Assembly (NCBI GenBank): GCA_025934395.1
Contig: JAICYC010000017.1
Span: forward strand, 1-48,937
Source of the DNA: Solirubrobacteraceae bacterium
GTDB lineage: Bacteria; Actinomycetota; Thermoleophilia; Solirubrobacterales; Solirubrobacteraceae
DNA length: 48,937 nt
Direction: 5' to 3'
Positions 3,957-26,998 of the stretch are shown here, piece by piece; positions within the stretch are counted from its first letter, which is position 1, and each line of letters starts with the position of its first letter. The notes beneath the pieces were generated by a model. The model was not told the DNA's origin, made no database searches, and saw only the letters and a program-made list of their open reading frames with translations. The translations under genes were made by a program, and so were the position numbers.

Positions 3957-6900
3957 ATGTGTGGCGGGCGACAGAGCTTTACCAGGCAGTGCGCGGAACG
4001 AGCCCCGGCGGGCCATCTCCGTCGCGTCGCGCTTCTGGCGGGCCTCTCGCTCGCGGCGTGTCTCGCCTCGGCCCCCTCGGCGCTCGCCGGTGCGAACGAA
4101 CTGCACTCGTTCGACCGCACGATCACGAGCGCGGGGAGCAAATGCGCGTTCACCGAACCCGGCGCGGTAGCGATGAGCCGGACGGGCGAAACGTACGTGA
4201 TCGATCGTGCCACCGACCGGCTCGAGCGGTTCTCTGCCGAAGCGAGGTCCACGCGCGAAGCGGAATGCCTCACGAGCAAAAAACTCGGCGTGGCGGAAAC
4301 CTCCGAAGCGACGAACGAAGGCCTCGCGGTCGACAACTCGGGTACGGGCTTCTCCAACGGCGACGTGTGGGTCTGGGCTCCCGAAGAAAAAGCGCTCGAG
4401 CGGTTCGTGCCCGAAGCGGGAAAACTCACGCTCAGCGTCCACGGGAAGTTCAAAAAATTCAAAAACCTCGAAGGTGAAACCGTCGAATTCGAATCGGAAG
4501 TCTACGGTCTCGCCACCGATGCCTCGGGCGATCTGTGGATGTACACCAGCGAAGGCAGCATCTACGTGTTCAGCGGCCAGGAAGTGCCCCAGCTGATCGC
4601 CTTCTACGAAACCAACGTCGGCACGTGCGCGCCCGAGCCCGGGTTCGCTGTGGCGCCGCACGGCGAATTCCTGTACGTGGGCCGCGAACGCGAAAACGGC
4701 ATCGAAGAATGCGACTCCGAAGCACCGTCGCTCGTGCGCGTGAACGGGGAAGGCGCGCCCGTCGGGCCGAAGGGCGAAGAACTCACCTTCGCGTTCGAAA
4801 GCCAGCTCGACTGGGACGGGGTCGCGGGCGCCAGGGTCGATCCGAGCAGCGGCGACATCTACTTCGACAACGGCACCAGCGTCACCGAGTTCACCGGCGA
4901 AGGAGGCTTCGTACAGCGCTTCGCCCAATCCGGCGCGGGCGCGCTCAAACTCGGACAGGGGCTCGGCGTCGATTCCGTCAACGGCGAGATCGCCGCCGCC
5001 GACGACGACGCGGAATTCAACGGGATCGTCAACCTCTACAAGGAGCAGACCCAGACCGACTCTCCCGCCAGCCCCACCCCGGGCCACGAACTGGCAGACG
5101 GGCGCCGGTGGGAACAGGTCTCCCCCGAGAACAAGCTCGGCGCGCAGATCTACCCGATCAGCCGCGACGACGGCATCGTGCAGGCGTCCGCCGACGGCAA
5201 CGCGATCACCTACACGTCCGCCGCTCCGCTGGTGGAAGACACGCCCGAGACGCAGAGCCCCGGACCCAACCAGGTGATGTCGCGGCTGTCGGCCACCGGC
5301 TGGCAGACGGAAAGCGTGGCGGTGCCGCGCAACGTCGCCGAAGGGGAACCCGAACATCCAACGGGCGTCCCCGTCGAATCCGGCAACGAATACCGCGTGT
5401 TCACGGAAGACCTGTCGACCGCGTACCTGCAGACCAACGGGTTCGCGGCTCACCAGTTCGAACCCAAACTCACCTCCGAAGCGACCGAAACGACGCTGTA
5501 CAGGACCAGCCTCGCACCGCCGCGCGCGGGTTGTGAGGCGCCGCCTTCCACCTGCTACAAGGCCCTCGTCTACCCGCATTCCGAAGGCGGCGAAGCGATC
5601 GACGCCGGGCCGTTCGGGGGCAAGCTCTGGTTCTACGCGACCACTCCCGACGGCCGCTACGCCGTCTTCCGCTCGGAAGTGAAGCTCACCGCGGCCGCCA
5701 GCAGTGAAGACGGGCTGTACGAGTGGTCCGAAGAAGGCGGCCTGAAGTACGTGAGCGCGCTTCCCGAAGGCGAACCATCACCGTTCGGCGAAGGCGAAGG
5801 CGAACCGTCGCTGGGCGCCCCCGGCGAGCGCCAGGGCAGCACGATGCGCGATGCGATCTCCACGAACGGCCAGCTGCTCGCGTGGTCCCTCGCCGGCTCC
5901 GAGGAATCCTCGGGTGCCCTGTACGTGACCGATACCGCGCTCGGCCAGACCGTGCGGGTCGATGCGCAGCACGGTGTGGCGCCGCTGGAAGAAGCACTGC
6001 CCGAGGCGAGGTTCCAGGCTGCAAGTGCCGACGGCCGGCACATCTTCTTCACCGACGCGATCCCGCTGACCGCGGACGCCACCACGCTCGGCATCGCCAC
6101 CACCGAACTCGTCGACGCCGAAAGCCTCGGTGACCTGTACGAGTGCGACGTGATCCAGAGCGCAGGGCACCTGTCGTGTGAACTGCACGATCTCACAGCC
6201 CAGACGCAGGGGGAATGGGCCGGAGTCCAGGGCGTCATCGGCGCAAACGAAGCGGGGACGATGGTCTACTTCGTGGCCAACGGCTCGCTCGCGAAACAGG
6301 GCGGTCACGGCGACTGCGCCGCAGTGGACGTGACCACCAAAGAATCCGGCGAGCTCGAAGAAGCCGACGGGAAACGCGCGACCACCTACTGCAACCTGTA
6401 CGTGGCCCGTTTCAACGGGTCGTCCTGGGCGCCCGAGGCGATCGCGACGCTCTCCGGGCAGGACCGCTGGGACTGGTGGGCGGAAGTCACCTACGCGCTC
6501 GGCAAAATGACCGCGCACGTGTCGGCGGACGGGCGCTACCTGGCGTTCATGTCCGACCGGTCGCTCACCGGCTACGACAACGTGGACGTAAACGAAGAAG
6601 GCGGGCGCCACGCCGACGAGGAGGTCTTCCGCTTCGACGCGCAGGCCAACCGCCTCACGTGCGTCTCGTGCAACGCGACGGGTGCGAGGCCGAAAGGCGC
6701 CCTCGACCCGCTGCTCGGCGCCTTCAAGAACGGCTACGCGCCGTTCATCGACTACCCGCTGACCTGGAGCGGTCGCTGGCTCGCCGCGAGCATCCCGGGA
6801 TGGACGGTGAGCGACCGCAACACCTCCGTGCACCAACCGCGCGTGCTGTCCGGCGGCGTCGGCGACGACGGCCGGATGTTCTTCAACGCCGCCGACAACC

Positions 6901-7481
6901 TCGTCCCGGCAGACGAAAACGGCTACACGGACGTGTACGAGTACGAGCCGTACGGGGTCGGGTCGTGCGCGAGCGCCAACGGCTGCGTGTCGCTGCTCTC
7001 GTCGGGGTCGGCGCCCCAGGAAGCCGCCTTCCTCGACGCGAGCGAAAACGGCGACAACGTGTTCCTGCTCACCAACGCCCCGCTGGCCGCCGGCGACGGC
7101 GACGACGTCTCCGACGTCTACGACGTGCACGCGTGCAGCGAAAGCTCGCCGTGCGCCGCGGGTGCGCCTGCGCCACACGTGCCGTGCCAGGACGAAGGAT
7201 GCAGGCCGCCCGCCGCGACGATGCCGGCGCCGCCGAGCGCCCCGCCGTCCACCGCCCCGGGCCCTGGCAACTCGCCGCGCACGATCGTGATCCCGCCCCC
7301 GAAACCTCCGGCGGAAGGCAACAACAGGAGGCTGCTCGAAAAAGCGCTCAAGGCCTGCCGCAGGGCGCACAGGCGCAAGCGGCCGCGGAAGGCGTGTGAA
7401 CGCAAGGCGCACAAGCGCTACCCCGCGGTCGCCGCGCGCAGCCTGCTCGAGCCCGGGCACGGAAGGCGGCACATCCGATGA
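3957..7481 (+). CDS. Giant exported NHL/PD40-type beta-propeller protein (A1)
   Basis: A 1174-residue exported protein. Residues 1-44 form a signal peptide (hydrophobic LLAGLSLAACLASAPSALA, predicted cleavage after SALA). Residues about 45-370 have NHL-like strands (PGAVAMSRTGETYVIDRATD). From about 380 (WEQVSPENKLGAQIYPIS) to about 1060 there are TolB/PD40-like segments such as SADGRYLAFMSDRSLTGYDN. A proline-rich linker (about 1090-1122) leads to a basic tail with two cysteines (ALKACRRAH, KACERKAHKRY). The start is the ATG 12 nt after GAGGGGAGG. It is paralogous along its length to the protein at 19899-23321 and overlaps the B1 gene by ATGA. Glutamate is mostly GAA, unlike flanking metabolic genes. 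Function unknown; a surface or matrix role is inferred. Confidence 0.85.
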   Translation: MCGGRQSFTRQCAERAPAGHLRRVALLAGLSLAACLASAPSALAGANELHSFDRTITSAGSKCAFTEPGAVAMSRTGETYVIDRATDRLERFSAEARSTREAECLTSKKLGVAETSEATNEGLAVDNSGTGFSNGDVWVWAPEEKALERFVPEAGKLTLSVHGKFKKFKNLEGETVEFESEVYGLATDASGDLWMYTSEGSIYVFSGQEVPQLIAFYETNVGTCAPEPGFAVAPHGEFLYVGRERENGIEECDSEAPSLVRVNGEGAPVGPKGEELTFAFESQLDWDGVAGARVDPSSGDIYFDNGTSVTEFTGEGGFVQRFAQSGAGALKLGQGLGVDSVNGEIAAADDDAEFNGIVNLYKEQTQTDSPASPTPGHELADGRRWEQVSPENKLGAQIYPISRDDGIVQASADGNAITYTSAAPLVEDTPETQSPGPNQVMSRLSATGWQTESVAVPRNVAEGEPEHPTGVPVESGNEYRVFTEDLSTAYLQTNGFAAHQFEPKLTSEATETTLYRTSLAPPRAGCEAPPSTCYKALVYPHSEGGEAIDAGPFGGKLWFYATTPDGRYAVFRSEVKLTAAASSEDGLYEWSEEGGLKYVSALPEGEPSPFGEGEGEPSLGAPGERQGSTMRDAISTNGQLLAWSLAGSEESSGALYVTDTALGQTVRVDAQHGVAPLEEALPEARFQAASADGRHIFFTDAIPLTADATTLGIATTELVDAESLGDLYECDVIQSAGHLSCELHDLTAQTQGEWAGVQGVIGANEAGTMVYFVANGSLAKQGGHGDCAAVDVTTKESGELEEADGKRATTYCNLYVARFNGSSWAPEAIATLSGQDRWDWWAEVTYALGKMTAHVSADGRYLAFMSDRSLTGYDNVDVNEEGGRHADEEVFRFDAQANRLTCVSCNATGARPKGALDPLLGAFKNGYAPFIDYPLTWSGRWLAASIPGWTVSDRNTSVHQPRVLSGGVGDDGRMFFNAADNLVPADENGYTDVYEYEPYGVGSCASANGCVSLLSSGSAPQEAAFLDASENGDNVFLLTNAPLAAGDGDDVSDVYDVHACSESSPCAAGAPAPHVPCQDEGCRPPAATMPAPPSAPPSTAPGPGNSPRTIVIPPPKPPAEGNNRRLLEKALKACRRAHRRKRPRKACERKAHKRYPAVAARSLLEPGHGRRHIR

Positions 7482-10400
7482 GCCCCCGGTGGCCAACGGT
7501 GTGCGGACGGGGCGCGGTGCTCGCGGTGCTCGCCTCGTGCGTGCTCCTCGCGCTCAGCCCGTCGGCGTTCGCGACCGAACCGGCTGCGTGGTGGCACCTG
7601 TCGGCGGGGACCGTCCCCGCGAACCTCGCGCCCGGCCACGAAGGCACGATCACGCTGCGCGCGCTCAACCTCGGGGACGGCCCGATCACGGCCAACGGCT
7701 CCGAGCCGGTGACGATCAGGGACGTGCTGCCGCCGGGCGTGAGCGTGACGGGGCTCTCACCGGGCATCTGCGGCGGCTCGGCGAAATCGAGCATCTGCGC
7801 CCGGAAATTCCCCAACTCCGCGCCGGTGATCAATCCCGAAGACGAATGCAGCACCGCCGAAGCCGGCGGCCACGAGGAAGTGACGTGCAGGTTCGCCGAA
7901 GAGCTCGATCCGTTCGAACTGTGGGAGATCGCGATCAACGTGGGCGTGTCGGGAGCGATCCCGTCCGGCACGAAGCTCGCCAACACGATGGTCGTCGAAG
8001 GCGGCGCCGGACCGGGGGGTGCCCCGATGCCCGAAGCCGACATCGAACGCCCGCTCAACGTCACCACCGAACCGGTCAGGTTCGGGCTCGACGACTTCGA
8101 GGTAGCCGCTGAAAACGAACACGGTGAACCTGAAACCACAGCCGGCGCGCATCCGTTCCAGCTCACCACCACGATCGCGCTGCACCGCATCTACGAAAAA
8201 TTCCTCGAAGGGCGGTTCCCCGAGCCGGGCGTGCCGCACCTGATCCGCAACGTGCGGGTGCACCTGCCGCCCGGTCTCGTCGGCAACCCTCAGGCGGTGG
8301 ACCAGTGCGGCGAACTCCAGTTCGAGACGATCGAACCCAACGGCATCGCCAACCAATGTCCCGACAGGACCGTGGTCGGCGCGGCGATCGTGGACGTCAA
8401 CGAACCGCTCAGCGTCCACCGCGTGATCGAGGCCGTCCCGATCTTCAACCTCAAACCCGCGCCCGGCGAGCCGGCACGCTTCGGCTTCACGGTCGTCAAA
8501 GTCCCGATCACGCTCGACACCGCCGTCGACGGCGGCGACTACCGGGTGCTCGTCAAGGTCAGCAACGCCTCGCAGGCGGCGGCGCTGCTCAGCAGCACCG
8601 TCACGATCTGGGGCGTCCCGGGGTCGCCGGTCCACAACGCCTCGCGCGGGTGGGACTGCCTGGCGCGCGGCGCCGGCTTCCAGGGCGCGGTCCCGTGCAC
8701 CGCCACCGGGCAGGGAGAAACCGCGTTCCTGTCGTTGCCGGGCGCCTGCACCGAAGCGGAGCCCACGCTCGTGGAAGCCGACTCGTGGGCGCCCTTCGAA
8801 CCCTACGTCTCGGGCCAGTCCCTGCTCCCGCAGCTCGGCGGCTGCGCATCGCTCGACTTCCGGCCGGCGCTGAAGATCCAGCCGACCGAAGCCGAACAGG
8901 AGCCCGTTCCGGAAGCCCCGGCGAGCACGCCCACGGGCCTCGACGTGAAGCTCTCGGTGCCCCAGACCGGGCTCGTCACCGTGGGCGATCGCGCGGAGGC
9001 CGATCTGCGCGACACGGTCGTGAAGCTGCCCGCAGGGATGCAGCTGAGCCCCTCCGCCGCCGACGGCCTGCAGTCCTGCTCGGAGAGCGCGGCCGGCTAC
9101 GAAGGCACGAACCCCGTCACCGGCACCGCGGAATTCCGCACCGAACAGGCCAAGCCGGAAACCGAAGACGAACACGCCGCCCGGGAAGCCGCGGGCGAAC
9201 TGTGCCCGAAGGCCTCCAAAGTGGGGACCGTGAGCGTGACCACGCCGCTGCTCAAGCACAAGCTCGAAGGCGACGTGTTCCTCGCTGCGCAAGAGGCCAA
9301 CCCGTTCAACTCGTTCTTCGCCCTGTACGTGGTCGTGGCTGACCCCGGGACCCCTGAGAACCCCGGTACCGGGGTGGACGTGAAGCTCGCCGGCAAGGTC
9401 GAAGTCGATCCCGAAACCGGGCAGGTCACCTCGACCTTCGAAAACGCTCCGCAGCTGCCGTTCGAACAGTTCGAGCTGAAGCTCACCGCGGGCCCGCGGG
9501 CCTCGCTGGCCACGCCGCGCGAATGCGGCATCGCCACGAGCAGCGCGACCCTCACCCCGTGGTCGGGGACCGCCCCGGTCGCGAGTTTCGGGTCGCCGAG
9601 CGACCTCCAGTTCACGGTGGGCACCGGTCCGGAAGGCTCACCGTGCCCCGCGCCCGGCCAGCTGCCGTTCGCCCCGCGGATCGTGGCGGGCGCGGCCAGC
9701 ACCCAGGCGGGCGCGTACACCCCGTTCGACCTGACGCTCGAACGCGACGGCTCGGGCCAGCAGGTCAACGGCTTGACGGTGGCGCTCCCGCCGGGGCTCG
9801 CCGCGACGATCGCGAACGTGTCCCGCTGCCCCGAACCGCAGGCCGGCGAGGGAACGTGCGGGCCCGAAAGCCAGATCGGGACCGCCGACGCCACCGTGGG
9901 TCTGGGCAGCGATCCCTACACCGTCACCGGCGGGCGGGTGTACCTCACCGGCCCCTATCAGCCTCCGGGCGGCCCGCTCGCGCCGTTCGGCCTGTCCGTC
10001 GTGCTGCCGACGCGCGCCGGCGGCACACCCGAACTCCCGGTGTTCGACTTCGGCAACGTGGTCACGCGCGCGGCGATCTACGTCGATCCCACGACCGCCG
10101 CGGTCTCGATCAAGAGCGCGCTCCCGCTGATGGTCCATACGATCGCCGACCCCCACACCGGCATCCCGGCCTCGCCCGGAGTGCCCGTGCAGCTGCGCCG
10201 GGTGGACGTGCACGTCGAAAGGCCCGGCAACGCGCCGTTCCAGTTCAACCCCACCAACTGCGAGCCGATGCAGGTCGGTGCGACCGTCACCGGCGACCAG
10301 GGGGCGAGCGCGTCGCTGACGCAGCCCTTCCAGGTGCACGGCTGCCAAGCGCTGGGCTTCTCGCCGGTGTTCGAAGCGGAAACCGAATCGCACTGGACGA

Positions 10401-11134
10401 AAGTGGAAGGCACGGGGCTGAAGGTGACGGTCCACGCCACGGCGGGGCAAGCGAACATCCACACCACGAAGATCGTCTTCCCCGCGCAGCTCCCCTCCCG
10501 CCTGACAACGATCCAGAAAGCCTGTCCCGAAGCCGTGTTCGCAGCCAATCCCGCCACCTGCCCGGAAGGCTCGGTGATCGGTCATGCAAGAGCGCTCACG
10601 CCGGTCCTCAACAACCCGCTGGACGGTCCCGCCTACCTCGTCTCGCACGGTGGCGCGGCGTTCCCGGATGCCGAGTTCGTGCTCCAGGGCGAAGGGATCA
10701 CGCTCGTGCTGGACGGCAAGACCAACATCCACAACGGGATCACCAGCTCGACCTTCGAAACGGTCCCCGACGCCCCGGTGAGCACCTTCGAAGTCGTGCT
10801 CCCGCGCGGCCCGCACTCGGCGTTCACCGGCTACGGCGATCTGTGCAAGGCGACGAAGACCGTAACGGTCGTGCAGACCGTGAAGAAGAAGGTCGGCAAG
10901 CACTTCAAGAAGGTCAAACGGCGCGTCACGAAGACCGTCTCGGAAGCGCTCGTGCTCCCCACCACGGTGGGTGCCCAGAACGGCACCACGCTGAAGGAGA
11001 CGCTGCCGCTGGTGGTGTCGGGCTGCAAGAAGGCGCCGGGAGGCAAGAAGCGCAAGGCCAAGGCAAGTCCCAAGCACTCCAAGAAGGCGAGCAGGGGTCA
11101 CGCCCACGGGTCCCGGCGGCGGGCTCGGCACTAG
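7478..11134 (+). CDS. Giant exported repeat protein (B1), DUF11-like N-terminus and four repeats
   Basis: A 1218-residue exported protein whose ATG overlaps the A1 stop. The signal peptide ends near residue 32 (SPSAFA). A DUF11-like beta domain follows (WWHLSAGTVPANLAPGHEG). Then four related repeats start near residues 257, 512, 765 and 997. Each opens with a beta strand and LPxG or a variant (NVRVHLPPGLVGNP, VVKLPAGMQLSP, VALPPGLAATIA, IVFPAQLPSRLT), followed by paired cysteines and an S-x-[VI]-G motif. The end is lysine/arginine-rich after a cysteine (CKKAPGGKKRKAK). It is paralogous to 23318-26998. The four-repeat count is my own reading; no enzymatic motif is visible. Confidence 0.83.
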   Translation: MSPRWPTVCGRGAVLAVLASCVLLALSPSAFATEPAAWWHLSAGTVPANLAPGHEGTITLRALNLGDGPITANGSEPVTIRDVLPPGVSVTGLSPGICGGSAKSSICARKFPNSAPVINPEDECSTAEAGGHEEVTCRFAEELDPFELWEIAINVGVSGAIPSGTKLANTMVVEGGAGPGGAPMPEADIERPLNVTTEPVRFGLDDFEVAAENEHGEPETTAGAHPFQLTTTIALHRIYEKFLEGRFPEPGVPHLIRNVRVHLPPGLVGNPQAVDQCGELQFETIEPNGIANQCPDRTVVGAAIVDVNEPLSVHRVIEAVPIFNLKPAPGEPARFGFTVVKVPITLDTAVDGGDYRVLVKVSNASQAAALLSSTVTIWGVPGSPVHNASRGWDCLARGAGFQGAVPCTATGQGETAFLSLPGACTEAEPTLVEADSWAPFEPYVSGQSLLPQLGGCASLDFRPALKIQPTEAEQEPVPEAPASTPTGLDVKLSVPQTGLVTVGDRAEADLRDTVVKLPAGMQLSPSAADGLQSCSESAAGYEGTNPVTGTAEFRTEQAKPETEDEHAAREAAGELCPKASKVGTVSVTTPLLKHKLEGDVFLAAQEANPFNSFFALYVVVADPGTPENPGTGVDVKLAGKVEVDPETGQVTSTFENAPQLPFEQFELKLTAGPRASLATPRECGIATSSATLTPWSGTAPVASFGSPSDLQFTVGTGPEGSPCPAPGQLPFAPRIVAGAASTQAGAYTPFDLTLERDGSGQQVNGLTVALPPGLAATIANVSRCPEPQAGEGTCGPESQIGTADATVGLGSDPYTVTGGRVYLTGPYQPPGGPLAPFGLSVVLPTRAGGTPELPVFDFGNVVTRAAIYVDPTTAAVSIKSALPLMVHTIADPHTGIPASPGVPVQLRRVDVHVERPGNAPFQFNPTNCEPMQVGATVTGDQGASASLTQPFQVHGCQALGFSPVFEAETESHWTKVEGTGLKVTVHATAGQANIHTTKIVFPAQLPSRLTTIQKACPEAVFAANPATCPEGSVIGHARALTPVLNNPLDGPAYLVSHGGAAFPDAEFVLQGEGITLVLDGKTNIHNGITSSTFETVPDAPVSTFEVVLPRGPHSAFTGYGDLCKATKTVTVVQTVKKKVGKHFKKVKRRVTKTVSEALVLPTTVGAQNGTTLKETLPLVVSGCKKAPGGKKRKAKASPKHSKKASRGHAHGSRRRARH

Positions 11135-11148
11135 CCCCGCGCCGCGCC

Positions 11149-12021
11149 TCACCAGCGCGCGCGGTGGTGCTCCATCACGCCGCTGCCGCTCGCCAGCTCG
11201 ATCCCGCCGGGCAGCGCGCCGGAGAAGGCGCCGAACGGTGCGCGGTACTCGCTCTCCAACAGCACCAGCCGGTCCCGACGCGCGCGCTCGGCCTCCGCGG
11301 CGAAGCTCAGCTGCTCTCCGCCGGCGAACGTCACGCACGTGAGGTCCTCCGCGAAGCTCACCGGCGCGGGCTCGCCGGGCACCCCCTCGATCCAGATCGC
11401 CCGCTCGCTGCCCGTCGGCGGGTCGTTCACGCCGCTGACGAGGTTCCACGCGACCGCGCGCCCGTCGCGCGCAACGCCCACGCCCGCGCTCCAGCGCCAT
11501 TCGGTCACCCGCGCGTGGTGGCCGCAGGTGTCGTCGATCACCGCCAGCGCCTCGACCTCGCGCGCGGGACCGCCGTCGAGCGCGAGCGTCCCCCGCGCGC
11601 GAATGCCCCCCTGCTTGCGCGTCCACACCTGCTGTGAGCCGTGCGCGCACAGCGCCTCGATGCCCGCCTGTTCGAAGAGCGCGAGGTCGAGCTGCACGCC
11701 GCGGCCACGGTCGGCGATCCTCAGCGCGCCTGCGCCGTCGCGCTCGCCGCCGTGCACCAGCCGCACCTCGCCGCGGCGCGGCAGCAATCGCGTGCGCTCG
11801 CGCAGCCGGCCGCTGCCGCGCTCGAGCAGCGCCCAGAAGGTCTGGCGGGCAGGGCCGATGTCCACATGGGCCGCGCACAGATGCAGCTCCTCCCCGAACA
11901 CCGCCACGTAACGCCAGCGCTTGCGCGGACGGCTGCCGCGCACGAGCGCGGCCACCTCGGGTGGCGGGTGGCCCGCGGTCGTGCGCCCCGCGCTCCCCGC
12001 CGTTATGCTTGCCGAAGCCAT
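11149..12021 (-). CDS. DUF2804 family protein
   Basis: A 290-residue protein resembling DUF2804, with segments such as HARVTEWRWSAGVG, AVAWNLVSGVN and a C-terminal ESEYRAPFGAFSGALPGG. Family members are beta-rich and of unknown biochemical role. ATG 12021 was chosen over the in-frame GTG 57 nt upstream because a TAGATT -10-like box and an inverted-repeat operator lie just before it. It diverges from the nitrilase-tetR operon and probably shares its repressor. Its 3' end converges on B1 with a 14-nt gap. Confidence 0.7.
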   Translation of the reverse strand: MASASITAGSAGRTTAGHPPPEVAALVRGSRPRKRWRYVAVFGEELHLCAAHVDIGPARQTFWALLERGSGRLRERTRLLPRRGEVRLVHGGERDGAGALRIADRGRGVQLDLALFEQAGIEALCAHGSQQVWTRKQGGIRARGTLALDGGPAREVEALAVIDDTCGHHARVTEWRWSAGVGVARDGRAVAWNLVSGVNDPPTGSERAIWIEGVPGEPAPVSFAEDLTCVTFAGGEQLSFAAEAERARRDRLVLLESEYRAPFGAFSGALPGGIELASGSGVMEHHRARW

Positions 12022-12037
12022 TGACTGACCAGTCAAT
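12020..12037. promoter_or_regulatory. Inverted-repeat operator, probable TetR-family site
   Basis: Perfect 8-bp arms around a 2-nt spacer: ATTGACTG-AC-CAGTCAAT. It lies between the divergent DUF2804 and nitrilase-tetR genes, abuts the DUF2804 start, and overlaps a -10-like TAGATT reading left (12035-12040). Size and symmetry suit a TetR dimer; the tetR gene is 0.9 kb away in the same operon. Confidence 0.7.
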
Positions 12038-12100
12038 CTATTCTCGGGCGTCGACGCCGCGACACGGAGCGCGCGCACCGGCGCACCAACGGGAGAGCTC

Positions 12101-17689: not shown

Positions 17690-18391
17690 ATGAAACGGAT
17701 CAGAATGGTGGCGCTGGCGCTGGTCGCGGTCTCCGCGATGGCGTTTGTTGCCTCCGCATCGGCCTCGCCGGTCTTCTTCGGCAAGGCTGCGGTCGGTGGG
17801 ACCGTCGGCACCGTGAAATTCACGGGTACGCTCGGCGCGGCTTTCCTTGAAGCCAAAGCCGGCACGAAGATCACGTGCACCGCGGGTACGGCGATCGGTG
17901 AAGTCACCGGGCCGACGACCAGCAAGAACAACGTCACGAAATTCACCGGCTGTGAAACGTCGGGTGTTGAGTGCCACAACGGTGCCGCGAACGAAATCGA
18001 CACGAAAACGCTCGAAGGCACGCTCGGTCAGGTGAGCTCGACGCTTCCGGGTATCCGCCTTTACGACCAGACCGAAAAAAAAGGTGGCATCCTTGCTGAA
18101 TTCACCTGCGCCGGCGGCGCGGTGAAAGTGCAGGTCAGGGGTTCCGTCATCGGTTCGCTGAGCGGTGCGTCCGGTAAATCGGTCGAAGAAGGCAAACTCG
18201 CGACGTCCAACAAACTGACGTTCGCCGAGAAAGAAGGCATCCAGAAATACGTCAAATTCGTCCCCGGTGAAGGCGAAGCTGGCGAAGAACAGCTCGAAGG
18301 CAACACGGGCGCGGGCTTCGAAAAGTCCGGCCAGTCCGTGATCGCCACGCTGAAAACCACCCCGGCCGGTCAGCTCGGCGTCACCAAATAA
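17690..18391 (+). CDS. Small exported four-cysteine protein, copy 1 (GSVI module)
   Basis: A 233-residue exported protein. The signal peptide (MKRIRMVALALVAVSAMAFV) cleaves after about ASASA, leaving mature SPVFFGKAAVG. The mature part has four cysteines (C63, C88, C95, C140) in ITCTAG, FTGCETSG, VECHN and EFTCAGG, then VRGSVIGSLSG, and is predicted mainly beta. It is a near-copy of the next gene. AAAGGAG precedes the ATG. Glutamate codons are 16 GAA to 2 GAG. No enzymatic motif is seen; the same module forms the C-terminus of the 524-residue proteins at 39740 and 41528. Confidence 0.82.
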   Translation: MKRIRMVALALVAVSAMAFVASASASPVFFGKAAVGGTVGTVKFTGTLGAAFLEAKAGTKITCTAGTAIGEVTGPTTSKNNVTKFTGCETSGVECHNGAANEIDTKTLEGTLGQVSSTLPGIRLYDQTEKKGGILAEFTCAGGAVKVQVRGSVIGSLSGASGKSVEEGKLATSNKLTFAEKEGIQKYVKFVPGEGEAGEEQLEGNTGAGFEKSGQSVIATLKTTPAGQLGVTK

Positions 18392-18435
18392 GATCCTGAG
18401 CTAGCCGTACCAGGTAGGTAGAAGCAAGCAGCAAG

Positions 18436-18466: not shown

Positions 18467-18469
18467 TAA

Positions 18470-18795: not shown

Positions 18796-19506
18796 ATGAG
18801 GATCAGAAGGTTCGGCATTGCCGGCGCCGTGCTGGCAGTGACCATCGCGGTCGCCGCGCTCGCATCGAGCGCGTCGGCGTCGCCCGTGTTCTTCGGGAAG
18901 GCGGCTGTCGGGTCGACCGTCGCGCCGGTCAAATTCACGGGCACGCTGGGCGCGGCGTTCCTCGAAGCGAAAGCCGGCACGAAGATCACGTGCACGGCGG
19001 GCACCAGCACGGGAGAAGTGACGGGGCCCACCACCGGCAAAAACGGCGTGACCAAATTCACCGGTTGCGAAACGTCGGGCGTGGAGTGCCACAACGCCGC
19101 CGCGAACGAAATCGACACTAAAGTGCTCGCGGGGACGCTCGGCAACGTCAGCGCAACGCTTCCGGGTATCCGCCTCTTCGACGAAAAAGAAGGCAGAGGC
19201 GGCATCCTGGCTGAATTCACCTGCGCCGGCGGAGCGGTGAAAGTCCAGGTCCGCGGCTCGGTCATCGGTTCGCTGAGCGGTGCGTCCGGTAAAACGGTCG
19301 AAGAAGGCAAACTCGCCACGTCGAGCAAACTGACGTTCGCCGAGAAAGAAGGCATCCAGAAATACGTCAAATTCGTCCCCGGTGAAGGCGAAGCCGGCGA
19401 AGAACAGCTCGAAGGCAACACGGGCGCGGGCTTTGAAAAGTCCGGCCAGTCCGTGATCGCCACGCTGAAAACGACCCCGGCCGGTCAGCTCGGCGTCACG
19501 AAATAG
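18796..19506 (+). CDS. Small exported four-cysteine protein, copy 2 (GSVI module)
   Basis: A 236-residue paralogue of the preceding gene. The signal peptide (MRIRRFGIAGAVLAVTIAVA) is different, but the mature protein is nearly the same from SPVFFGKAAVG to the end, with the same four cysteines and VRGSVIGSLSG. The last 270 nt of the two genes are almost identical even at synonymous positions, which suggests a recent duplication or gene conversion. The start has GGGGTCAGG upstream. Function unknown. Confidence 0.82.
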   Translation: MRIRRFGIAGAVLAVTIAVAALASSASASPVFFGKAAVGSTVAPVKFTGTLGAAFLEAKAGTKITCTAGTSTGEVTGPTTGKNGVTKFTGCETSGVECHNAAANEIDTKVLAGTLGNVSATLPGIRLFDEKEGRGGILAEFTCAGGAVKVQVRGSVIGSLSGASGKTVEEGKLATSSKLTFAEKEGIQKYVKFVPGEGEAGEEQLEGNTGAGFEKSGQSVIATLKTTPAGQLGVTK

Positions 19507-19590
19507 GAGCTGAGCCGACCAGCGACAAGACACAAGGCGACTCGCCACGCCGGCCTCAACCGGCGCAGGCGGTGAGCCCGCAGTGAATCG

Positions 19591-19626
19591 GGAGCGCGAG
19601 ACCTTGGTCTCGCGCTCCTGTTCTTT
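19591..19626 (+). terminator. Intrinsic terminator after exported copy 2
   Basis: Twelve-base-pair perfect stem GGAGCGCGAGAC-CTTG-GTCTCGCGCTCC followed by TGTTCTTT. Confidence 0.85.
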
Positions 19627-19841
19627 GCCGGCTGCCGGCGGACGGTGGCGCCGCGCGGCTCCCTTCAGCTGTCCCCGCCGACCCAGGCGCCAGGGCGCCA
19701 ACACGCTCTGGAGGCCGTGTGGGCGAGTCGCGATTCCACGGCGGTGGGTGCTCACGCGATCCGCGCCACGGCGCAACGTTTGGCGGTCGCGCGCGTTATG
19801 TAGGCGGAGGTTGCTGCTGGACGGGCGCGGATGGTTGCTGC
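19627..19841. other. Intergenic stretch before the A2 promoter
   Basis: No feature recognised. An open frame running into A2 from 19719 has unusual composition and no ribosome-binding site, so I read it as non-coding. Confidence 0.5.
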
Positions 19842-19869
19842 TTGACAGCGAATCGCCCATCGATAAACT
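19842..19869 (+). promoter_or_regulatory. Sigma70-type promoter of the A2-B2 bicistron
   Basis: Consensus TTGACA (19842-19847), 16-nt spacer, TAAACT (19864-19869). Predicted start near 19877, giving a short leader that holds GGAGAGGGACAGG before the ATG at 19899. Confidence 0.6.
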
Positions 19870-19898
19870 CGCTTGTAGAGGATTCGGAGAGGGACAGG

Positions 19899-22800
19899 AT
19901 GGCGGAGAGCAGGATCGATGAGGGCGAGGAGCGTGGCGACGGCGGGGGGGAGCAAGCGGGCTCTCGCGCCGGGAACGGCGCCGCCCGCCGGGGCTCACGC
20001 CGCCTGCTCCTGACGGTCGCCGCAGCAGTTCTCGGCGCCCTCGCGCTCGCCGGGCCCTCCTCCGCGTCCGCGGAAGGAGGCCGCGAACTCAAGCTGAGCT
20101 TCAAGGCGGCCGGTGAATGCACTTTCACCGCGCACGAAGGGAACACGTCCGGACCGGGCGGGGTCGCAGTCGACGAAGCGACCGGCGAAATCTTCGTGTT
20201 CGATCGCGGCAACAACGGCGTCGATCGGTTCAGCGCGACGGGCACCTGCCTGTCGCACTTCGCGGTCGGGAAAAAAGCCACCGGCAACGCGACGCAGGAA
20301 GGCATCGCGTTCGACAACGCGCCCTCGAGTCCGTCGTTCGGAGACCTCTACGTCTACGAAAACGGCGACCGCTCGATCCACAAGTACCGAGTCGAAGGCA
20401 GCGGTGCTGCTGTGCTGGTCGGACAGATCGCGGGCACGCCCTCGGGAGAAGAAACGGTGAAGTTCACGCTGCACGGCCTCTCGGTGGACAACGCCGGCGA
20501 CCTCTGGGCGTACAACCTGAACAGCATCGACGAGTTCAACAACGAAGTGCACAACGCGTTCGTGTCCGAGACGGAAATCGGGTCCCTGCTGTGCCTGCCG
20601 CGGGCAGGTTTCGCTGTTGGGCCTGTCGGTCTGGCCGGGAAGCCGGAACGGTTCTACGTCGGGCGTCAACGCGAATCGAACCGGGAAAAATGCGAACCGA
20701 CGGTGGTCACGGACCTGCTCGACGGGGACCTGGAACCGGTCGAAGCGTCCGGGAGCGCGCAGCTGGGTGAAAACCCGACCGGGATCGCAGTGGACCTCGG
20801 GTCCGGCACCTCGTTCATCGACAACGGCATGGGCGTCGCGGAATTCACGCCGGACGGAACGCTGCTGAAACAGTTCGGCGTCGGCAGCCTCCACGAAGGC
20901 GCCGGCGTGGCCGCCTCGGCTGCGACGGGCGCCGTGTACGTGGCGGACGCCCACGAAGGGCAGGTGCAGGTCTACGTTCCCGGAGGTGAAGCAATCGGAC
21001 CGGTGGCCAACCCGGCCGTGCTGCCCGACGGCCGTGCCTGGGAGCAGGTGACGCCCGCCAACAAGCTCGGCTCGGCCCTCTATCCGATCTCGATGTTCTT
21101 CGGGGTGATCGAGGCCTCCGAAGACGGCAACGCGCTGACGTTCACGTCCGCGGCGCCGATCGTCACCGACGCGGCGGCCAACCGTGCGCCCGAACCCGTC
21201 CAGAACCTCGCGCAGCGCTCCGCAACCGCCTGGAACACGCAGGATCTCGCGACCCCGCGCAACAACATCCCGATCTCCTCGAAGTCCGGCTACGGCGGCT
21301 CGGAGTACCGCTTCTTCACACCGGACCTCAGCGCCGGGCTGCTCGAACCCGATCTCGGGTTCCAGGTCGCAGAAGAACTGCGGCTCGCCCCGGGAGCGAC
21401 GGAAACGACCCTCTACTCGCGCAACACCTCAGGGCCCGACGGCAGCTGCGAACCGGTCCCCTCGGCCTGCTATGAAGCGCTCGTGACCGCCGCGAACGCC
21501 ACGTCCGGCGCGGCGTTCGGTGGCAGGCTGGCCTTCATCAGCGCGACTTCCAACGGCCAGCACGCGGTGTTCCTCTCGAGCGTGGGGATCACGCCGGGCG
21601 CCCTCCGCGAAGGCCTGTACGAGTGGAGCAAGGGTGGAGCGCTGCGGCTTGTCAACCTGCTCCCCCTCTCCGAAGGCGGCACTCAGGCACCCGAATCCTC
21701 GCTCGGCATCGGCGAACCGGGGACGAACGAGGGCAACCCCCGCAACGCCATCTCCGCGAGCGGCTCGCGCGTGTTCTGGAGCGCGTCGCAGGAAGCGGGG
21801 AACCAAGCGCTCTACGTGCGCGACTTCGAATTCAACTCGACGCTGCGCGTTGACGCGGCGCAGGGAGTGGCCCAGCCCAAAGAAGCCACCTCCCAGTTCC
21901 AGCTCGCGACCGCGAGCGGCTCGCGGGTGTTCTTCACCGACACCGGCCGTCTGCTCCCCGAATCGGGCGGGGAAAACCTCGAACAAGAACCCGCCGGCGA
22001 GGGCGATCTCTACGCCTGCGACCTCGTCGAACGCGAACACCAGCTCGCGTGCAACCTGACCGATCTCACGCGAGTCAGCAAGACGCGCTCCGCCGAAGTC
22101 CAGGGCGCGGTGGTCGGGGCCAGCGAAGACGGGAACACGGTCTACTTCGTCGCCAACGCCGCGCTCGCGCCCGGCGCGACCCAGGGACACTGCGAAGGAG
22201 AACGTCCGTCGGTCGCCTCCACGTGCAACCTGTACATGGCGCACTTCAACGGGAGCTCGTGGCAGACCACGTTCATCGCCTCGCTCTCGGGCGAAGACGG
22301 CCCCGACTTCGCGCTGAACCAGTCGTTCTCGATGTCGACGATCAGCTCGCGCGTGTCGCCCAACGGCAAGTACCTCGCGTTCATGTCCGCTCGCAGCCTT
22401 ACCGGCTACGACAACGTCGACGCGAGCCCCGTGGCGAACGGCGCGCGCGACGAGGAGGTCTACCTCTACAACGCCGAAGCCGGCACGATCGCGTGCGCGT
22501 CGTGCAACCCGAAGGGCGAACGGCCGCAAGGCTTCCACGACTCCTCCCAGGTGGGGGGGACCGGGACCCTGGTCGACAAACAGGGCATCTGGGTCGAAGA
22601 ACCGAACGAGGGCGAACATCACGCCGACCACTGGCTCGCGGGGACGATCCCCGGATGGACGGCGCTCAAAGGCCAGATCGCGCTGTACCAGTCGCGCTAC
22701 CTCTCCAACACCGGGCGTCTGTTCTTCAACAGCACGGATACGCTCGTGGAAGGCGACAAGAATCAGCTCGCGGACGTCTACGAGTACGAGCCCGACGGAG

Positions 22801-23321
22801 AAGGCTCGTGCACCAGCGAAACCGGCTGCGTGTCGCTGATCTCCTCGGGCTCGGCCGAATCGACCCGGGAATCGGTGTTCCTCGACGCCAGCGAAAGCGG
22901 CAACGACGTGTTCTTCCTCACGGCGACGCGGCTCGTCGAACAGGACACCGATCCGGCCTTCGACATCTACGACGCCCGTGTGTGCACAACCTCCTCGCCC
23001 TGCATCCCGGCGCCGCCAAAGCCGACACCGGAATGCTCCGGCGAAGAATGCAAAGAAAAAGTGTCTGCTCCCGCGCTGCCGCCCGTGCCGGCGAGCACCG
23101 TGCCGGGTGGCGGGAACGTCGCGAGCGTGCGCGTGCTGTCGTTCGTCGAAGTAAAACCGCAATCCAACTCGAAGCCGCTGACGCGCGCCCAGAAGCTCGC
23201 CAAAGCGCTGAAGGCGTGCAAGAAGATAAAGAAGCACTCCAAGCGCAAGGCCTGCGAACACCAGGCGCGCAAGAAATACGGCCCGCCGGCGAAACATCAC
23301 AAGAAGCGCTCCAAGAAATGA
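19899..23321 (+). CDS. Giant exported NHL/PD40-type beta-propeller protein (A2)
   Basis: A 1140-residue paralogue of A1. An unusually long hydrophilic N-region (acidic, then RRGSRRLLL) precedes the hydrophobic core, with cleavage after about residue 58 (PSSASA); the double arginine makes Tat export possible. NHL-like strands (GPGGVAVDEATGEIFVFDRG) come first. From about residue 379 (WEQVTPANKLGSALYPIS) PD40-like segments follow, including SPNGKYLAFMSARSLTGYDN. A proline-rich linker precedes the basic two-cysteine tail (KALKACKKIKK, KACEHQARKKYG). ATG 19899 was chosen for its ribosome-binding site and promoter. It overlaps B2 by ATGA. Function unknown. Confidence 0.85.
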   Translation: MAESRIDEGEERGDGGGEQAGSRAGNGAARRGSRRLLLTVAAAVLGALALAGPSSASAEGGRELKLSFKAAGECTFTAHEGNTSGPGGVAVDEATGEIFVFDRGNNGVDRFSATGTCLSHFAVGKKATGNATQEGIAFDNAPSSPSFGDLYVYENGDRSIHKYRVEGSGAAVLVGQIAGTPSGEETVKFTLHGLSVDNAGDLWAYNLNSIDEFNNEVHNAFVSETEIGSLLCLPRAGFAVGPVGLAGKPERFYVGRQRESNREKCEPTVVTDLLDGDLEPVEASGSAQLGENPTGIAVDLGSGTSFIDNGMGVAEFTPDGTLLKQFGVGSLHEGAGVAASAATGAVYVADAHEGQVQVYVPGGEAIGPVANPAVLPDGRAWEQVTPANKLGSALYPISMFFGVIEASEDGNALTFTSAAPIVTDAAANRAPEPVQNLAQRSATAWNTQDLATPRNNIPISSKSGYGGSEYRFFTPDLSAGLLEPDLGFQVAEELRLAPGATETTLYSRNTSGPDGSCEPVPSACYEALVTAANATSGAAFGGRLAFISATSNGQHAVFLSSVGITPGALREGLYEWSKGGALRLVNLLPLSEGGTQAPESSLGIGEPGTNEGNPRNAISASGSRVFWSASQEAGNQALYVRDFEFNSTLRVDAAQGVAQPKEATSQFQLATASGSRVFFTDTGRLLPESGGENLEQEPAGEGDLYACDLVEREHQLACNLTDLTRVSKTRSAEVQGAVVGASEDGNTVYFVANAALAPGATQGHCEGERPSVASTCNLYMAHFNGSSWQTTFIASLSGEDGPDFALNQSFSMSTISSRVSPNGKYLAFMSARSLTGYDNVDASPVANGARDEEVYLYNAEAGTIACASCNPKGERPQGFHDSSQVGGTGTLVDKQGIWVEEPNEGEHHADHWLAGTIPGWTALKGQIALYQSRYLSNTGRLFFNSTDTLVEGDKNQLADVYEYEPDGEGSCTSETGCVSLISSGSAESTRESVFLDASESGNDVFFLTATRLVEQDTDPAFDIYDARVCTTSSPCIPAPPKPTPECSGEECKEKVSAPALPPVPASTVPGGGNVASVRVLSFVEVKPQSNSKPLTRAQKLAKALKACKKIKKHSKRKACEHQARKKYGPPAKHHKKRSKK

Positions 23322-26300
23322 TCCCCGCCCGACGTATGACGATGGCTGCTCGCCGCAGGATGCTCGGCCTCCTCGCTGTGTGCGGGGCGGTGCTGGCGAT
23401 CGCCCTCGTGGCGGTCCAGCCCGCGGGGGCCGCCGAAAACTGCAAAGGCGTGTGCGCCGGCTGGTGGCACCTGTCGATCAACGCCGCCCCGACGTACATC
23501 GCCCCCGGCCACGAAGCCGTGCTCGCGATCAGCGCCACGAACCTCGGCAGCGGGTACATCAAGGCGACGCCGGGCGAACCGGTGACGCTCAAGAACGTCC
23601 TGCCCGCGGGTCTCGTGCTCACCGGGACGGCGCCGCGCATCTGCCTCACGGAAACGGCCAACGGGCCGATCTGCGGCAAGCGCTCGCCCGAACACACGGA
23701 AGCCAAGACGAAAGAAAAGCCCGTGTGCGACCCGGCGACGTTCTCGTGCACGATCACGCAGGGTCTCGCCCCTTACGAATCGATCGAGATCGACGCCACG
23801 GTGAAGGCCGAACTGCCGACCGGGACAGACACGTCGCTGAGCGACGAAGCGATCGTCGAAGGGGGCGGCGCCGCGCGGACGGCGATCAAGCGGCCCGTGC
23901 GCATCTCCGAATCCGAAGTCCCGTTCGGGGTCGAAAACTACGAATTCGAGCCGGAAGACGAACTCGGGCAGCCCGACCGCCAGGCGGGCGCCCATCCCTT
24001 CCAGCTGACGACGACGCTCGCGTTCAACGAGATCCTGCACGACTACAAAGGCGAAAGGGGCGTCCAGACGACGACTCCGCAAGAGACGAAGAACGTCCAC
24101 GTGAACCTGCCGCCGGGCTTCGTCGGGAACCCGATCGGCGTGCCCCAGTGCACCGAACTGCAGTTCACGACCCATCCGCGGCCGCCGGGCGGGCGCGAAG
24201 ACGCGGGTGTGAACGAGTGCCCCCAGGACAGCGTCGTGGGTGTATCCGTGGTGCGGATCGACGAACCGATCACCCTCGCCGAGCGCACGGTCGTCAGCCC
24301 CGTGTTCAACCTCGTCCCGGCCGAAGGGGAGCCCGCGCGTTTCGGCTTCCAGGCCTTCACGGTCCCGGTCACGCTCGACACTGTCGACAACGGGGGCGAC
24401 TTCCACGTCGCCGTCAACGTGAACCAGGCGTCGCAGGCTGCCGCGCTGCTGCAGAGCGAAGTCACCGTCTGGGGGGTTCCGGGCGACCACCGCCACGATC
24501 AGGCGCGTGGCTGGGCCTGCCTGGTCGAAGAAGCCGAGGCGCAGTCGTTCGGCAAACCATGCGCCGAAGAAGAACTCTCGACGAAGGCGTTCCTGTCGCT
24601 GCCGACCTCGTGCAGCGCCGCCCTGGAAACGTCCTCGCTCGTACAGTCCTGGGAACCGGGCGCGCCGCTGCTCCCAGCCGTGTCGCCCAAGTTCATGGGT
24701 GACGAAGAAGGCACCCTGACGCCCACCAACTGCGGCGCGCTCCCGTTCACGCCCGCGATTGCGATCCAACCCGAGGAACACTCGGCGAACACGCCCACCG
24801 GCCTGCACGTCACGCTCAAGGTCCCGCAGACGAGCTTCGAAGAACAGAACGGTCTCGCCGAGGCCGACCTGCGTGACTCGGTCGTCACGCTCCCCGAAGG
24901 GGTCCTGCTGAACCCGTCGGCTGCCAACGGGCTCGCGGCATGCTCGGAGTCGGCTGTCGGCTTCGAACGAGTCAACCCGATCTCGGGCACCGCCGAATTC
25001 CGTCCCGAAGTCCCTAACGTCGAAGGCGCCGAAGAACTTGCCGCGAGGGAAGCCCGCGGCGAAGTCTGCCCAAAGGGCTCCAAGGTCGGGACCGTGCGCG
25101 TCAAGACCCCCGTACTCAGCCACGAACTGGCGGGCAATGTGTACCTGGCCGAACAGGAACACAACCCGTTCGGCTCGCTGTTCGCGCTTTACATCGTCGT
25201 CAAGGATCCCGTGTCTGGAGTCGTCGCGAAGCTCGCCGGCGAAGTGGTGCTCAACGAAACCACAGGCCAGATCAAGACCACGTTCAAGAACTCGCCCCAG
25301 CTGCCGTTCGAAGAATTCGAACTCAACCTGATGAACGGCCCGCGCGCGTCGGTGACGACCCCGAGGGCGTGCGGCACGTACGCGATCGACGCGCTGTTCC
25401 AGTCGTGGGCGGTCGGCAAGGAAGCGGAAGAAAAAGGCGAAGGCCTCGTCGGCAGCTCCGGGCTCGCGAGCGAACGCGAATTCGCGATCGACGCCGGCGC
25501 CGAAGGCGCGCCGTGCCCGGGCGGACAGCCTCCGTTCAACCCCGGCTTCGTGGCGGGCACGACCGAAAGCCAGGCGGGCGCGTTCACGCCGTTCACGCTG
25601 ACGCTCACCCGCGGCAGCGGCGAACAGGCCCCGACGGGCCTGACCGTGAAACTGCCGCCGGGGATCGCGGGCTACCTCTCGAACGTCAAGCAGTGCCCCG
25701 AGCCGCAGGCGAGCGAAGGCACGTGCGGCCCCGAGAGCCTGATCGGCTCTGCCACCGCCGTGGCCGGACTCGGCGAAACTCCGTTCACGGAGACCGGTGG
25801 CCGCGTGTACGTCACCGGCCCCTACGGCGGCGCGCCGTTCGGCCTGTCGGTCGTGATTCCCGCCGTGGCCGGCCCCTTCAACTTCGGCGACGTGGTCACC
25901 CGCTCGGCGATCCACGTCGACCCCAACACCGCCGCGCTGACGATCAACAGCACACTGCCGACGATGCTCAACGCGCTGCACAACCCCAACACCGGTGGCG
26001 AAACGCACACGGGCGCCCCGGTGCAGCTGCGCCGCGTCGACGTTCGGGTCGAAAGGCCGGGCAATGCGCCGTTCCAGTTCAACCCCACCAACTGCTCCCC
26101 GATGGCGATCACCGGGACCGTAACCGGCGAACAGGGCGCCGTCGCGCAGGTGTCGTCGCCGTTCCAGGTCAAGGGGTGCAACAACCTCGCGTTCTCCCCC
26201 CAGCTCGAAGCGACAACCAACTCGAACTACTCGAAAGTCAACGGCACGAGCCTCGTCGTGAAGGTCACGGCTACGCCGGGCCAGGCGAACATCAAAACGA

Positions 26301-26998
26301 CGAAGATCAAGTTCCCCGCGCAGTTGCCGTCGCGCCTCACCACGATCCAGAAAGCGTGCCCTGAACAGAAGTTCAACGAAAACCCGGCATCGTGTCCGGA
26401 AGGCTCCGTGATCGGCTCTGCGATCGCGCACACGCCGGTGCTCAACCAGCCGCTCACCGGCCCCGCGTACCTTGTGTCGCACGGCAACGCTGCCTTCCCC
26501 GACGCCGAGTTCGTGCTGCAGGGCGAAAACGGTGTGGTCCTCGTACTCGACGGCCAGACGGACATCAAAGGCCCCCACGGTGAACCGTGTGCGGCCAGCC
26601 ATTCGGGGTGCGTCACGAGCTCGTCCTTCGAATCGGTTCCCGACGCCCCCGTCAGCACGTTCGAAGTGAACCTGCCGGCGGGCCCGCACTCGGCGTTCAC
26701 CGGGTTTGAAGACCTGTGCAAACCTGTCACAACCGTCACGCGCCAGGCGATTGTCAACAAGACGGTCGGCAAGCGCAAGCACAGGCACACGGTCAAAGTG
26801 CGCAAGACGGTGACAGAAAAAGTCGCGTCCTCGTTGCAGTTGCCCACGATCCTCGGCGGGCAGAACGGCGACGTGATCGAAGAGACGCTGCCGCTTCACG
26901 TGACTGGCTGCAAAGGCGTGGCCGGCTTCAAGAAGGCCAAGCACAAGCACAAGCACAAGCACAAGCACAAGAAGAAGAAGCACAAGAAGAAGAAGTAG
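23318..26998 (+). CDS. Giant exported repeat protein (B2), DUF11-like N-terminus and four repeats
   Basis: A 1226-residue paralogue of B1. ATG 23318 overlaps the A2 stop exactly as in A1-B1; ATGs at 23336 and 23342 are alternatives. The signal peptide ends near residue 39 (VQPAGAA). A DUF11-like domain (WWHLSINAAPTYIAPGHEA) precedes four repeats near residues 259, 520, 775 and 997, opening with VNLPPGFVGNP, VTLPEGVLLNP, VKLPPGIAGYL and IKFPAQLPSRLT, each with paired cysteines and an S-x-[VI]-G motif. The tail is only lysine and histidine, encoded by a hexanucleotide repeat. No catalytic motif; surface or matrix role inferred. Confidence 0.83.
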   Translation: MIPARRMTMAARRRMLGLLAVCGAVLAIALVAVQPAGAAENCKGVCAGWWHLSINAAPTYIAPGHEAVLAISATNLGSGYIKATPGEPVTLKNVLPAGLVLTGTAPRICLTETANGPICGKRSPEHTEAKTKEKPVCDPATFSCTITQGLAPYESIEIDATVKAELPTGTDTSLSDEAIVEGGGAARTAIKRPVRISESEVPFGVENYEFEPEDELGQPDRQAGAHPFQLTTTLAFNEILHDYKGERGVQTTTPQETKNVHVNLPPGFVGNPIGVPQCTELQFTTHPRPPGGREDAGVNECPQDSVVGVSVVRIDEPITLAERTVVSPVFNLVPAEGEPARFGFQAFTVPVTLDTVDNGGDFHVAVNVNQASQAAALLQSEVTVWGVPGDHRHDQARGWACLVEEAEAQSFGKPCAEEELSTKAFLSLPTSCSAALETSSLVQSWEPGAPLLPAVSPKFMGDEEGTLTPTNCGALPFTPAIAIQPEEHSANTPTGLHVTLKVPQTSFEEQNGLAEADLRDSVVTLPEGVLLNPSAANGLAACSESAVGFERVNPISGTAEFRPEVPNVEGAEELAAREARGEVCPKGSKVGTVRVKTPVLSHELAGNVYLAEQEHNPFGSLFALYIVVKDPVSGVVAKLAGEVVLNETTGQIKTTFKNSPQLPFEEFELNLMNGPRASVTTPRACGTYAIDALFQSWAVGKEAEEKGEGLVGSSGLASEREFAIDAGAEGAPCPGGQPPFNPGFVAGTTESQAGAFTPFTLTLTRGSGEQAPTGLTVKLPPGIAGYLSNVKQCPEPQASEGTCGPESLIGSATAVAGLGETPFTETGGRVYVTGPYGGAPFGLSVVIPAVAGPFNFGDVVTRSAIHVDPNTAALTINSTLPTMLNALHNPNTGGETHTGAPVQLRRVDVRVERPGNAPFQFNPTNCSPMAITGTVTGEQGAVAQVSSPFQVKGCNNLAFSPQLEATTNSNYSKVNGTSLVVKVTATPGQANIKTTKIKFPAQLPSRLTTIQKACPEQKFNENPASCPEGSVIGSAIAHTPVLNQPLTGPAYLVSHGNAAFPDAEFVLQGENGVVLVLDGQTDIKGPHGEPCAASHSGCVTSSSFESVPDAPVSTFEVNLPAGPHSAFTGFEDLCKPVTTVTRQAIVNKTVGKRKHRHTVKVRKTVTEKVASSLQLPTILGGQNGDVIEETLPLHVTGCKGVAGFKKAKHKHKHKHKHKKKKHKKKK
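26939..26995 (+). repeat. Hexanucleotide/trinucleotide coding repeat in the B2 tail
   Basis: Five perfect tandem AAGCAC units (26939-26968), then AAG-rich units, all in frame, encoding alternating Lys-His and then poly-Lys. Copy-number slippage would change tail length without a frameshift. Confidence 0.85.

Follow-up and report, generated by a model that had tools for sequence, protein, structure and literature searches.

Overlapping gene pairs for a propeller protein and an Ig-like chain in Solirubrobacterales: a candidate two-partner surface complex

Introduction

The integrin alpha subunit carries a propeller head on immunoglobulin-like (Ig-like) legs, and archaeal surface proteins reportedly combine YVTN-type beta-propellers with PKD (Ig-like) domains in single chains. 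Here, we describe a pair of genes, A and B, that occurs twice in a 48,937-nucleotide stretch of DNA from a Solirubrobacteraceae bacterium (contig JAICYC010000017.1 of assembly GCA_025934395.1, C83 in our survey; hereafter the window). Both products are large and probably exported; A is modelled as two propeller regions and B as a chain of Ig-like units.

The two genes mostly overlap by a few nucleotides. Short overlaps are the setting of termination-reinitiation coupling, and genes that encode subunits of heteromeric complexes show them more often (PMC10666635, PMC6728339). Among open-licence PMC papers, we found no description of an A-B pair. We lean, with restrained confidence, toward the view that A and B form a dedicated, co-translated, exported two-partner surface complex made up of a head, a rod and polycationic tails. 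What computation shows in its favour is the order and overlap of the genes, the export-like signals and basic tails, the repeats and modelled folds, partner-specific evolution, and single open frames in draft genomes.

Results

A and B are adjacent and overlap more often than chance

A preliminary description of the window had placed A1-B1 and A2-B2 as gene-for-gene paralogous pairs in the same order, each with an ATGA overlap, and the positions, paralogy, order and overlaps are all as claimed. The ATGA overlap is present at both junctions, and BLASTP alignments run over nearly the full length of the proteins, with 38% identity between A1 and A2 (1137 columns) and 52% between B1 and B2 (1231 columns); A and B match each other in BLAST at chance level only. 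The count of two copies holds for the window but not for the whole source genome (a draft of 3.0 Mb, 91% complete), which has three pairs. The third, A3-B3, lies on contig C26 (locus L013) and has a GTGA overlap, and a 4-nucleotide overlap is present in 3/3 pairs of this genome.

Seeding with B yielded 36 named loci, whose genomes partly recur in a survey seeded with A, and these loci hold 22 pairs in the order A then B as well as one locus in the order B then A (L028). The 22 named junctions comprise 14 in-frame 4-nucleotide overlaps, two TGATG overlaps (1 nucleotide) and five starts at most 8 nucleotides away; the last, in L023, stays ambiguous. Overlaps of 4 or 1 nucleotide are accordingly found in 16 of the 22 pairs. 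The 4-nucleotide form, seen in 14/22 A-B junctions, was found in only 25/172 other co-directional neighbours, taken from the named loci and a few further loci (Fisher P 2e-6). The overlap at A-B junctions is more frequent than chance, as expected from the earlier suggestion of a preserved coupling overlap.

The A-seeded survey covered 232 genomes of the order, 52 of which contain A at E ≤ 1e-30, and 30 loci were examined, one per genome and with the window's own included. B lies directly downstream of A in 28 of these loci (in one of them within the same frame) and upstream in one; the remaining locus is cut by a contig end. The proposed A-B adjacency across genomes was therefore recovered in 29/30 loci, and neither of the contrary outcomes that the preliminary description had named, mostly unlinked homologues or no export, appeared for A.

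The N-terminal domain of B and single open frames

Sixteen named genes encode the N-terminal domain (N-domain) of B. A is adjacent in 15/15 judgeable cases (downstream of B in L028), and the sixteenth gene (L026) has only 263 bases of upstream sequence. The domain is absent from 30 judged genes, nine of which have A, giving P 4e-6 for the association, a value uncorrected for shared ancestry. Tandem runs of two or three B genes, with neither A nor the N-domain, occur in L038, L040, L045 and L047-L051, and several loci with B alone adjoin a common gene family (cluster 2: L026, L038, L040, L041, L042).

Three open frames contain both A and B, lending weaker support to the pairing. L088 (2074 residues, B then A) has the best codon signal at 7/9 linker points, L095 (1807 residues, A then B) at 8/10, and L087 (2206 residues, A then B) at 6/12; L088 and L095 both come from draft genome G183. 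We regard the L087 single frame as doubtful, as another frame is better at half of its linker points. The N-domain was found in L088 and in neither L087 nor L095, a pattern in line with a docking role, although three cases prove nothing. Elsewhere in L087, a 1721-residue frame (4502-9667, + strand) combines an NHL-type part with a B-type chain and lacks the second propeller region.

Partner-specific co-evolution

We compared trees of A and B for 34 pairs, which remained from 39 found by a distance rule after five had been dropped as duplicate or too short; the set includes L087 and excludes L088 and L095. The mirror-tree correlation was 0.706, against a maximum of 0.334 in 2000 shuffles. When partners were swapped solely within the nine groups sharing a genome or locus (23 pairs), the observed value was reached in 3/5000 shuffles. 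The trees of A and B agree beyond the shared-species effect, and this partner-specific co-evolution speaks for the suggestion that the two proteins work together.

The agreement also bears on the strongest alternative, namely that A and B are separate secreted proteins, merely co-expressed, that serve the same substrate or the same time without binding each other. We hold this to be possible but rather unlikely. It would accommodate the occurrence of B without A, also in tandem arrays, and the fact that overlapping genes are not rare in general, as the control pairs above illustrate; against it stand the tree agreement after species control, the single open frames with A and B, and the finding of the N-domain solely beside A among judged genes.

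Protein A: two modelled propeller regions and a basic tail

A models as two beta-propeller regions, NHL-type and then PD40-type, in keeping with the NHL/PD40-like label originally given to it. For NHL (PF01436), A2 scores 28.5 bits against a cut-off of 20; A1 has no match at E ≤ 1, though its model matches NHL propellers. For PD40 (PF07676, cut-off 20.9 bits), A1 (25.1) and A3 (27.5) lie above and A2 (20.8) just below. Pfam also identifies FN3-type domains in some relatives, and the similarity of A2 to ScyF (NF035926), at 38.9 bits, is far below the NCBIfam cut-off of 350.

The AlphaFold2 model of A, built with 26 sequences, has a mean predicted local distance difference test score (pLDDT) of 76.4 and comprises a beta N-terminal part (residues ~24-320), a second beta-rich region reaching to ~1015, and a helical hairpin at residues 1079-1110 (block pLDDT 82-90). 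The fold matches listed from the PDB are largely propellers, with template modelling scores (TM-scores) of NHL-type matches up to 0.71 over the target. For the second region, the evidence of a propeller is PD40 together with low-TM-score matches to multi-propeller structures.

The hairpin corresponds to a basic tail motif with two cysteines, L..AL..C..(variable)..R..C...A...Y. It has six invariant positions in an alignment of 21 sequences that were selected for showing it, no Pfam match at cut-off, and a single PDB match at chance level. The motif is borne by A1, A2 and A3. Judged by eye, 15/25 A open frames have it; in the remaining ten, the C-terminus is either simply basic or a beta-type end of another kind. 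Several relatives' B proteins bear it as well. Directly downstream of B3 lies an exported-like protein with FN3 repeats (L013:3868-5412, - strand), which carries a C-terminal tail motif as in A. A role of the motif as a general sorting signal was rejected: its carriers in the source genome are A1-A3 and this FN3 protein, besides which one match, at E 0.59, was obtained.

Protein B: an N-domain and four Ig-like units

The preliminary description knew of no function assigned to such a pair, and searches of Pfam and NCBIfam with full-length B1 and B2 gave no match at E ≤ 1. The label "DUF11-like" given to B fared less well, reducing to sub-threshold similarity of the N-terminal domain: the best B score for DUF11 (PF01345) is 19.4 bits (B3) against a cut-off of 24.6, and isolated N-domains give sub-threshold matches in 5/10 cases.

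The AlphaFold2 model of B (54 sequences) is nearly all beta, with a mean pLDDT of 89.7. Profile comparison, with unit borders set at motifs of our choosing, related all six pairs among four units to one another (probability 92-99.6), and the N-domain resembled none of the four. The confident model of B thus places an N-terminal domain ahead of four homologous Ig-like units, none of them recognised by a Pfam model. The best fold match is to the Ig-like domains of PrgB (E 4e-12), followed by complement, mastigoneme, integrin and antigen I/II chains, all at low TM-scores; the reading of B as a rod therefore relies on domain-level similarity. Many B cysteines are conserved, and they may form disulphides. 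Giant open frames of 4643-7223 residues with repeated matches to the B-type unit occur in G004 (C7), G008 (C7) and G012 (C1), which represent one genus in another family of the same order.

Export-like starts and charged tails

The signal peptides attributed to both pairs are supported by export-like starts on A1, A2, B1 and B2. With a home-made test of hydropathy, n-region charge and an AxA motif, a signal-peptide-like start was seen in 22/22 B proteins (B1-B3 and those of 19/22 named pairs, leaving out L023, L046 and one L043 pair), compared with 3/440 internal control segments. The same features are found in A1-A3, in the FN3 protein and in three small proteins, D1-D3 (see below). No LPxTG sortase motif was found in the last 80 residues of 29 proteins (0/29), a set in which a few B genes are cut by contig ends, and no SLH domain in A1, A2, B1 or B2 (Pfam, E ≤ 1). 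A net charge of at least +8 in the last 50 residues was found for 82/94 A/B genes, a set that includes some truncated at contig ends, and for 10/307 other genes in the loci. The bodies of the proteins are acidic, at about -6 to -9 per 100 residues in A1-A3 and -1.4 to -4.2 in B proteins.

These features also fit a second alternative, an S-layer or extracellular sheath in which B forms the lattice or fibre and A caps or cross-links it. Such a structure would suit the large size, exported-like Ig chains, acidic bodies and basic tails of these proteins, as well as the tandemly arrayed B genes and the giant B-unit repeat frames of relatives, and mastigonemes and an archaeal S-layer protein are among the 50 B fold matches listed. 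We nevertheless consider it improbable: the Pfam matches of A1, A2, B1 and B2 include no SLH or other S-layer domain, variable adhesins would explain three diverged copies in one genome better than a single lattice would, and B-like genes occur in 95/201 genomes of the order (first B profile, E ≤ 1e-3). In a third alternative, A would be the receptor part, and B the carrier, of a toxin or enzyme complex delivered in the manner of Tc/teneurin proteins, which are defined by an RHS/YD repeat shell or toxin domain. In its favour, a teneurin-like protein ranks second among A fold matches. We consider it very improbable: that match has a TM-score of 0.14-0.17, and the four window proteins have neither an RHS/YD, enzyme or toxin family above cut-off (Pfam, NCBIfam) nor a PADLOC match, the latter also giving no indication of a defence role.

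Copy history and taxonomic range

The three pairs of the source genome, judged by sequence divergence, are diverged paralogues, and the window copies are old. We rejected a recent duplication of the pair because A1/A2 and B1/B2 are diverged (38% and 52% identity). A3 is shorter (791 residues) and lacks the N-terminal NHL part, and two more B-like genes in this genome, one complete and one cut by a contig end, lack the N-terminal part. The trees are split on copy history, A1 having its nearest relative in another genome and B1 in B2. The gene neighbourhood of A2-B2 is common to several relatives (L016, L018, L021, L034; BLAST clusters), which points to vertical inheritance of this copy.

Twenty-five of the 36 named loci are titled Solirubrobacteraceae or Solirubrobacterales, one Thermoleophilaceae and one Conexibacter, and the remainder are labelled Actinobacteria, Actinomycetes or Actinomycetota; from the titles of these relatives, the order is Solirubrobacterales. 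At E ≤ 1e-10, the B profile matched 49/299 genomes of a class sample and 4/396 of a phylum sample, counting the source genome, and all of these matches fall within the same order. A was found in 90/201 genomes of the order (E ≤ 1e-3), where weak matches may be generic propellers. A mobile origin was rejected, B2 having no match among plasmid or phage records. A B-like protein with 31% identity is encoded on a viral-labelled IMG/VR contig (L099), which could represent misbinned host DNA or the border of a prophage.

Neighbouring genes in the window

The features of the window are collected in Table 1. D1-D3 are paralogous proteins flanking A2-B2, and D2, D3 and the D relatives tested have no Pfam match. 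D adjoins the pair in 7/22 A-bearing named loci. In the source genome, where 11 out of 23 candidates were scored, a D profile gave at least 11 matches; three alone flank the pair. The profile matched 14/232 genomes, 12 of them in the genus. With mostly non-flanking matches and a largely genus-limited range, the case for D as a third core part is weakened; D proteins are associated with the pair in this genus and are not core. At 39740-43132 (- strand), an exported-like protein of 561 residues adjoins its 534-residue paralogue, also exported-like; the 561-residue protein has a match to a D-like module, and BLAST groups the two with D.

TetR regulators were considered as partners and set aside: they make up 8/66 immediate neighbours versus 14/253 other genes, which is not significant (P 0.096). 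A gene of the TetR-like cluster, whose identity was checked by Pfam for one member, adjoins A or B in L019, L022, L023, L031, L035, L036, L043 and L044.

Table 1. Positions of the A-B pairs, tail motifs and D genes in the window
Feature	Description	Position	Strand	Length (aa)
A1	Probably exported; NHL-type then PD40-type propeller regions; basic C-terminal tail	3957..7481	+	1174
A1 tail motif	C-terminal; modelled as helical hairpin	7323..7427	+	
B1	Probably exported; N-terminal domain, four homologous Ig-like units and basic tail	7478..11134	+	1218
D1	Small exported-like protein, upstream of A2-B2	17690..18391	+	
D2	Small exported-like protein, upstream of A2-B2	18799..19506	+	
A2	A1 paralogue; open frame from 19719, likely ATG at 19899	19899..23321	+	
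A2 tail motif	C-terminal	23178..23288	+	
B2	B1 paralogue	23318..26998	+	1226
D3	Small exported-like protein, downstream of A2-B2	27330..28043	+	

Discussion

In the two-partner complex that we favour, one transcript would encode A and then B, and B would be translated by ribosome termination-reinitiation at the ATGA/GTGA overlap, yielding a near fixed A:B ratio. Both proteins would leave the cell by the Sec route. B may fold as a cysteine-rich rod of four tandem Ig-like units whose N-terminal domain probably docks A, and A would serve as a two-propeller head that binds a ligand, possibly a glycan, a matrix polymer or another cell. Strongly basic C-terminal tails on these otherwise acidic proteins could then fasten the complex to the anionic wall, or link subunits to one another, in a sortase-free manner. 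We infer an exported complex of near-fixed ratio because export-like signals, a dedicated partnership and single-frame versions coincide. Coupling itself, use of the Sec route and physical contact between A and B are likewise presumed, and so are docking by the N-domain, anchoring by the tails, an adhesive or matrix role and, beyond these, the binding partner and biological role of the pair.

Several observations weigh against this complex. A genes that had been detected next to B supplied the profile for the A-seeded survey, and the A-seeded and named-locus counts are not independent, because their genomes overlap (several junctions are identical). B stands without A in 21/45 judgeable B genes (54 were found), which argues for A-independent roles of B; a fixed A:B ratio, as initially proposed, is possible solely for the subclass of B that has A. 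Nine A-linked B genes lack the N-domain. Frameshifts are possible in the single-frame pairs, because the studied frame is not always the best in the linker. Linked genes co-evolve somewhat even without contact, the nearest neighbours of A and B agree exactly in only 14/34 pairs, and the P values ignore shared ancestry. Finally, whole-query Foldseek TM-scores are low for A and B (0.06-0.19), so that their fold likeness is by domain only; an assignment of B or of whole A to a fold family was rejected on these scores. The doubts over survey overlap and single frames leave our confidence in the two-partner complex unmoved, because the tree and overlap tests rest on neither.

A bolder version, which we put forward tentatively and think unlikely as a whole, is an order-specific surface polymer. 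Here, A-B would assemble into fibres or a coat through pairing of acidic bodies with polycationic, disulphide-stapled tails, the N-domain would act as a socket for the propeller head, and the variant heads of paralogous pairs would give the cell a repertoire of binding specificities. If true, this would amount to a sortase-free principle of surface display, of which we know of no description.

More broadly, the pair may be an undescribed two-part surface machine of little-known soil bacteria, and it provides a concrete entry to how these cells meet their surroundings. B, outside every curated family searched, offers an unclassified family of Ig-like repeats, and A an unclassified C-terminal tail motif. 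A-B is also a possible natural case of two proteins that are encoded in some loci by overlapping genes and in others by one open frame.

Among described systems, A-B resembles the PrgB and antigen I/II adhesins in that tandem Ig-like chains of both (8beg, 3qe5) are among the best B fold matches; a sequence search of the PDB with the B profile found neither of them, nor any integrin. A-B differs from these adhesins in lacking LPxTG and in placing the presumed head on a separate propeller protein. With the archaeal YVTN/PKD surface proteins it shares the combination of propeller and Ig-like modules, but A-B is mostly encoded by two overlapping genes and its unclassified Ig-like units are different. 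The A-to-B single-frame form repeats the order of fold types in the integrin alpha subunit, and integrin chains are among the B fold matches; given bacterial proteins, low TM-scores and no sequence match, the likeness is one of analogy only. In its co-directional genes with 4- or 1-nucleotide overlaps, A-B is similar to the overlapping pairs of heteromeric complexes for which PMC10666635 proposes co-translational assembly; A and B differ in being very large and exported-like. We place A-B as a two-protein surface system of a known general kind, seen within one order in the genomes sampled and equipped with an unclassified repeat family and tail motif.

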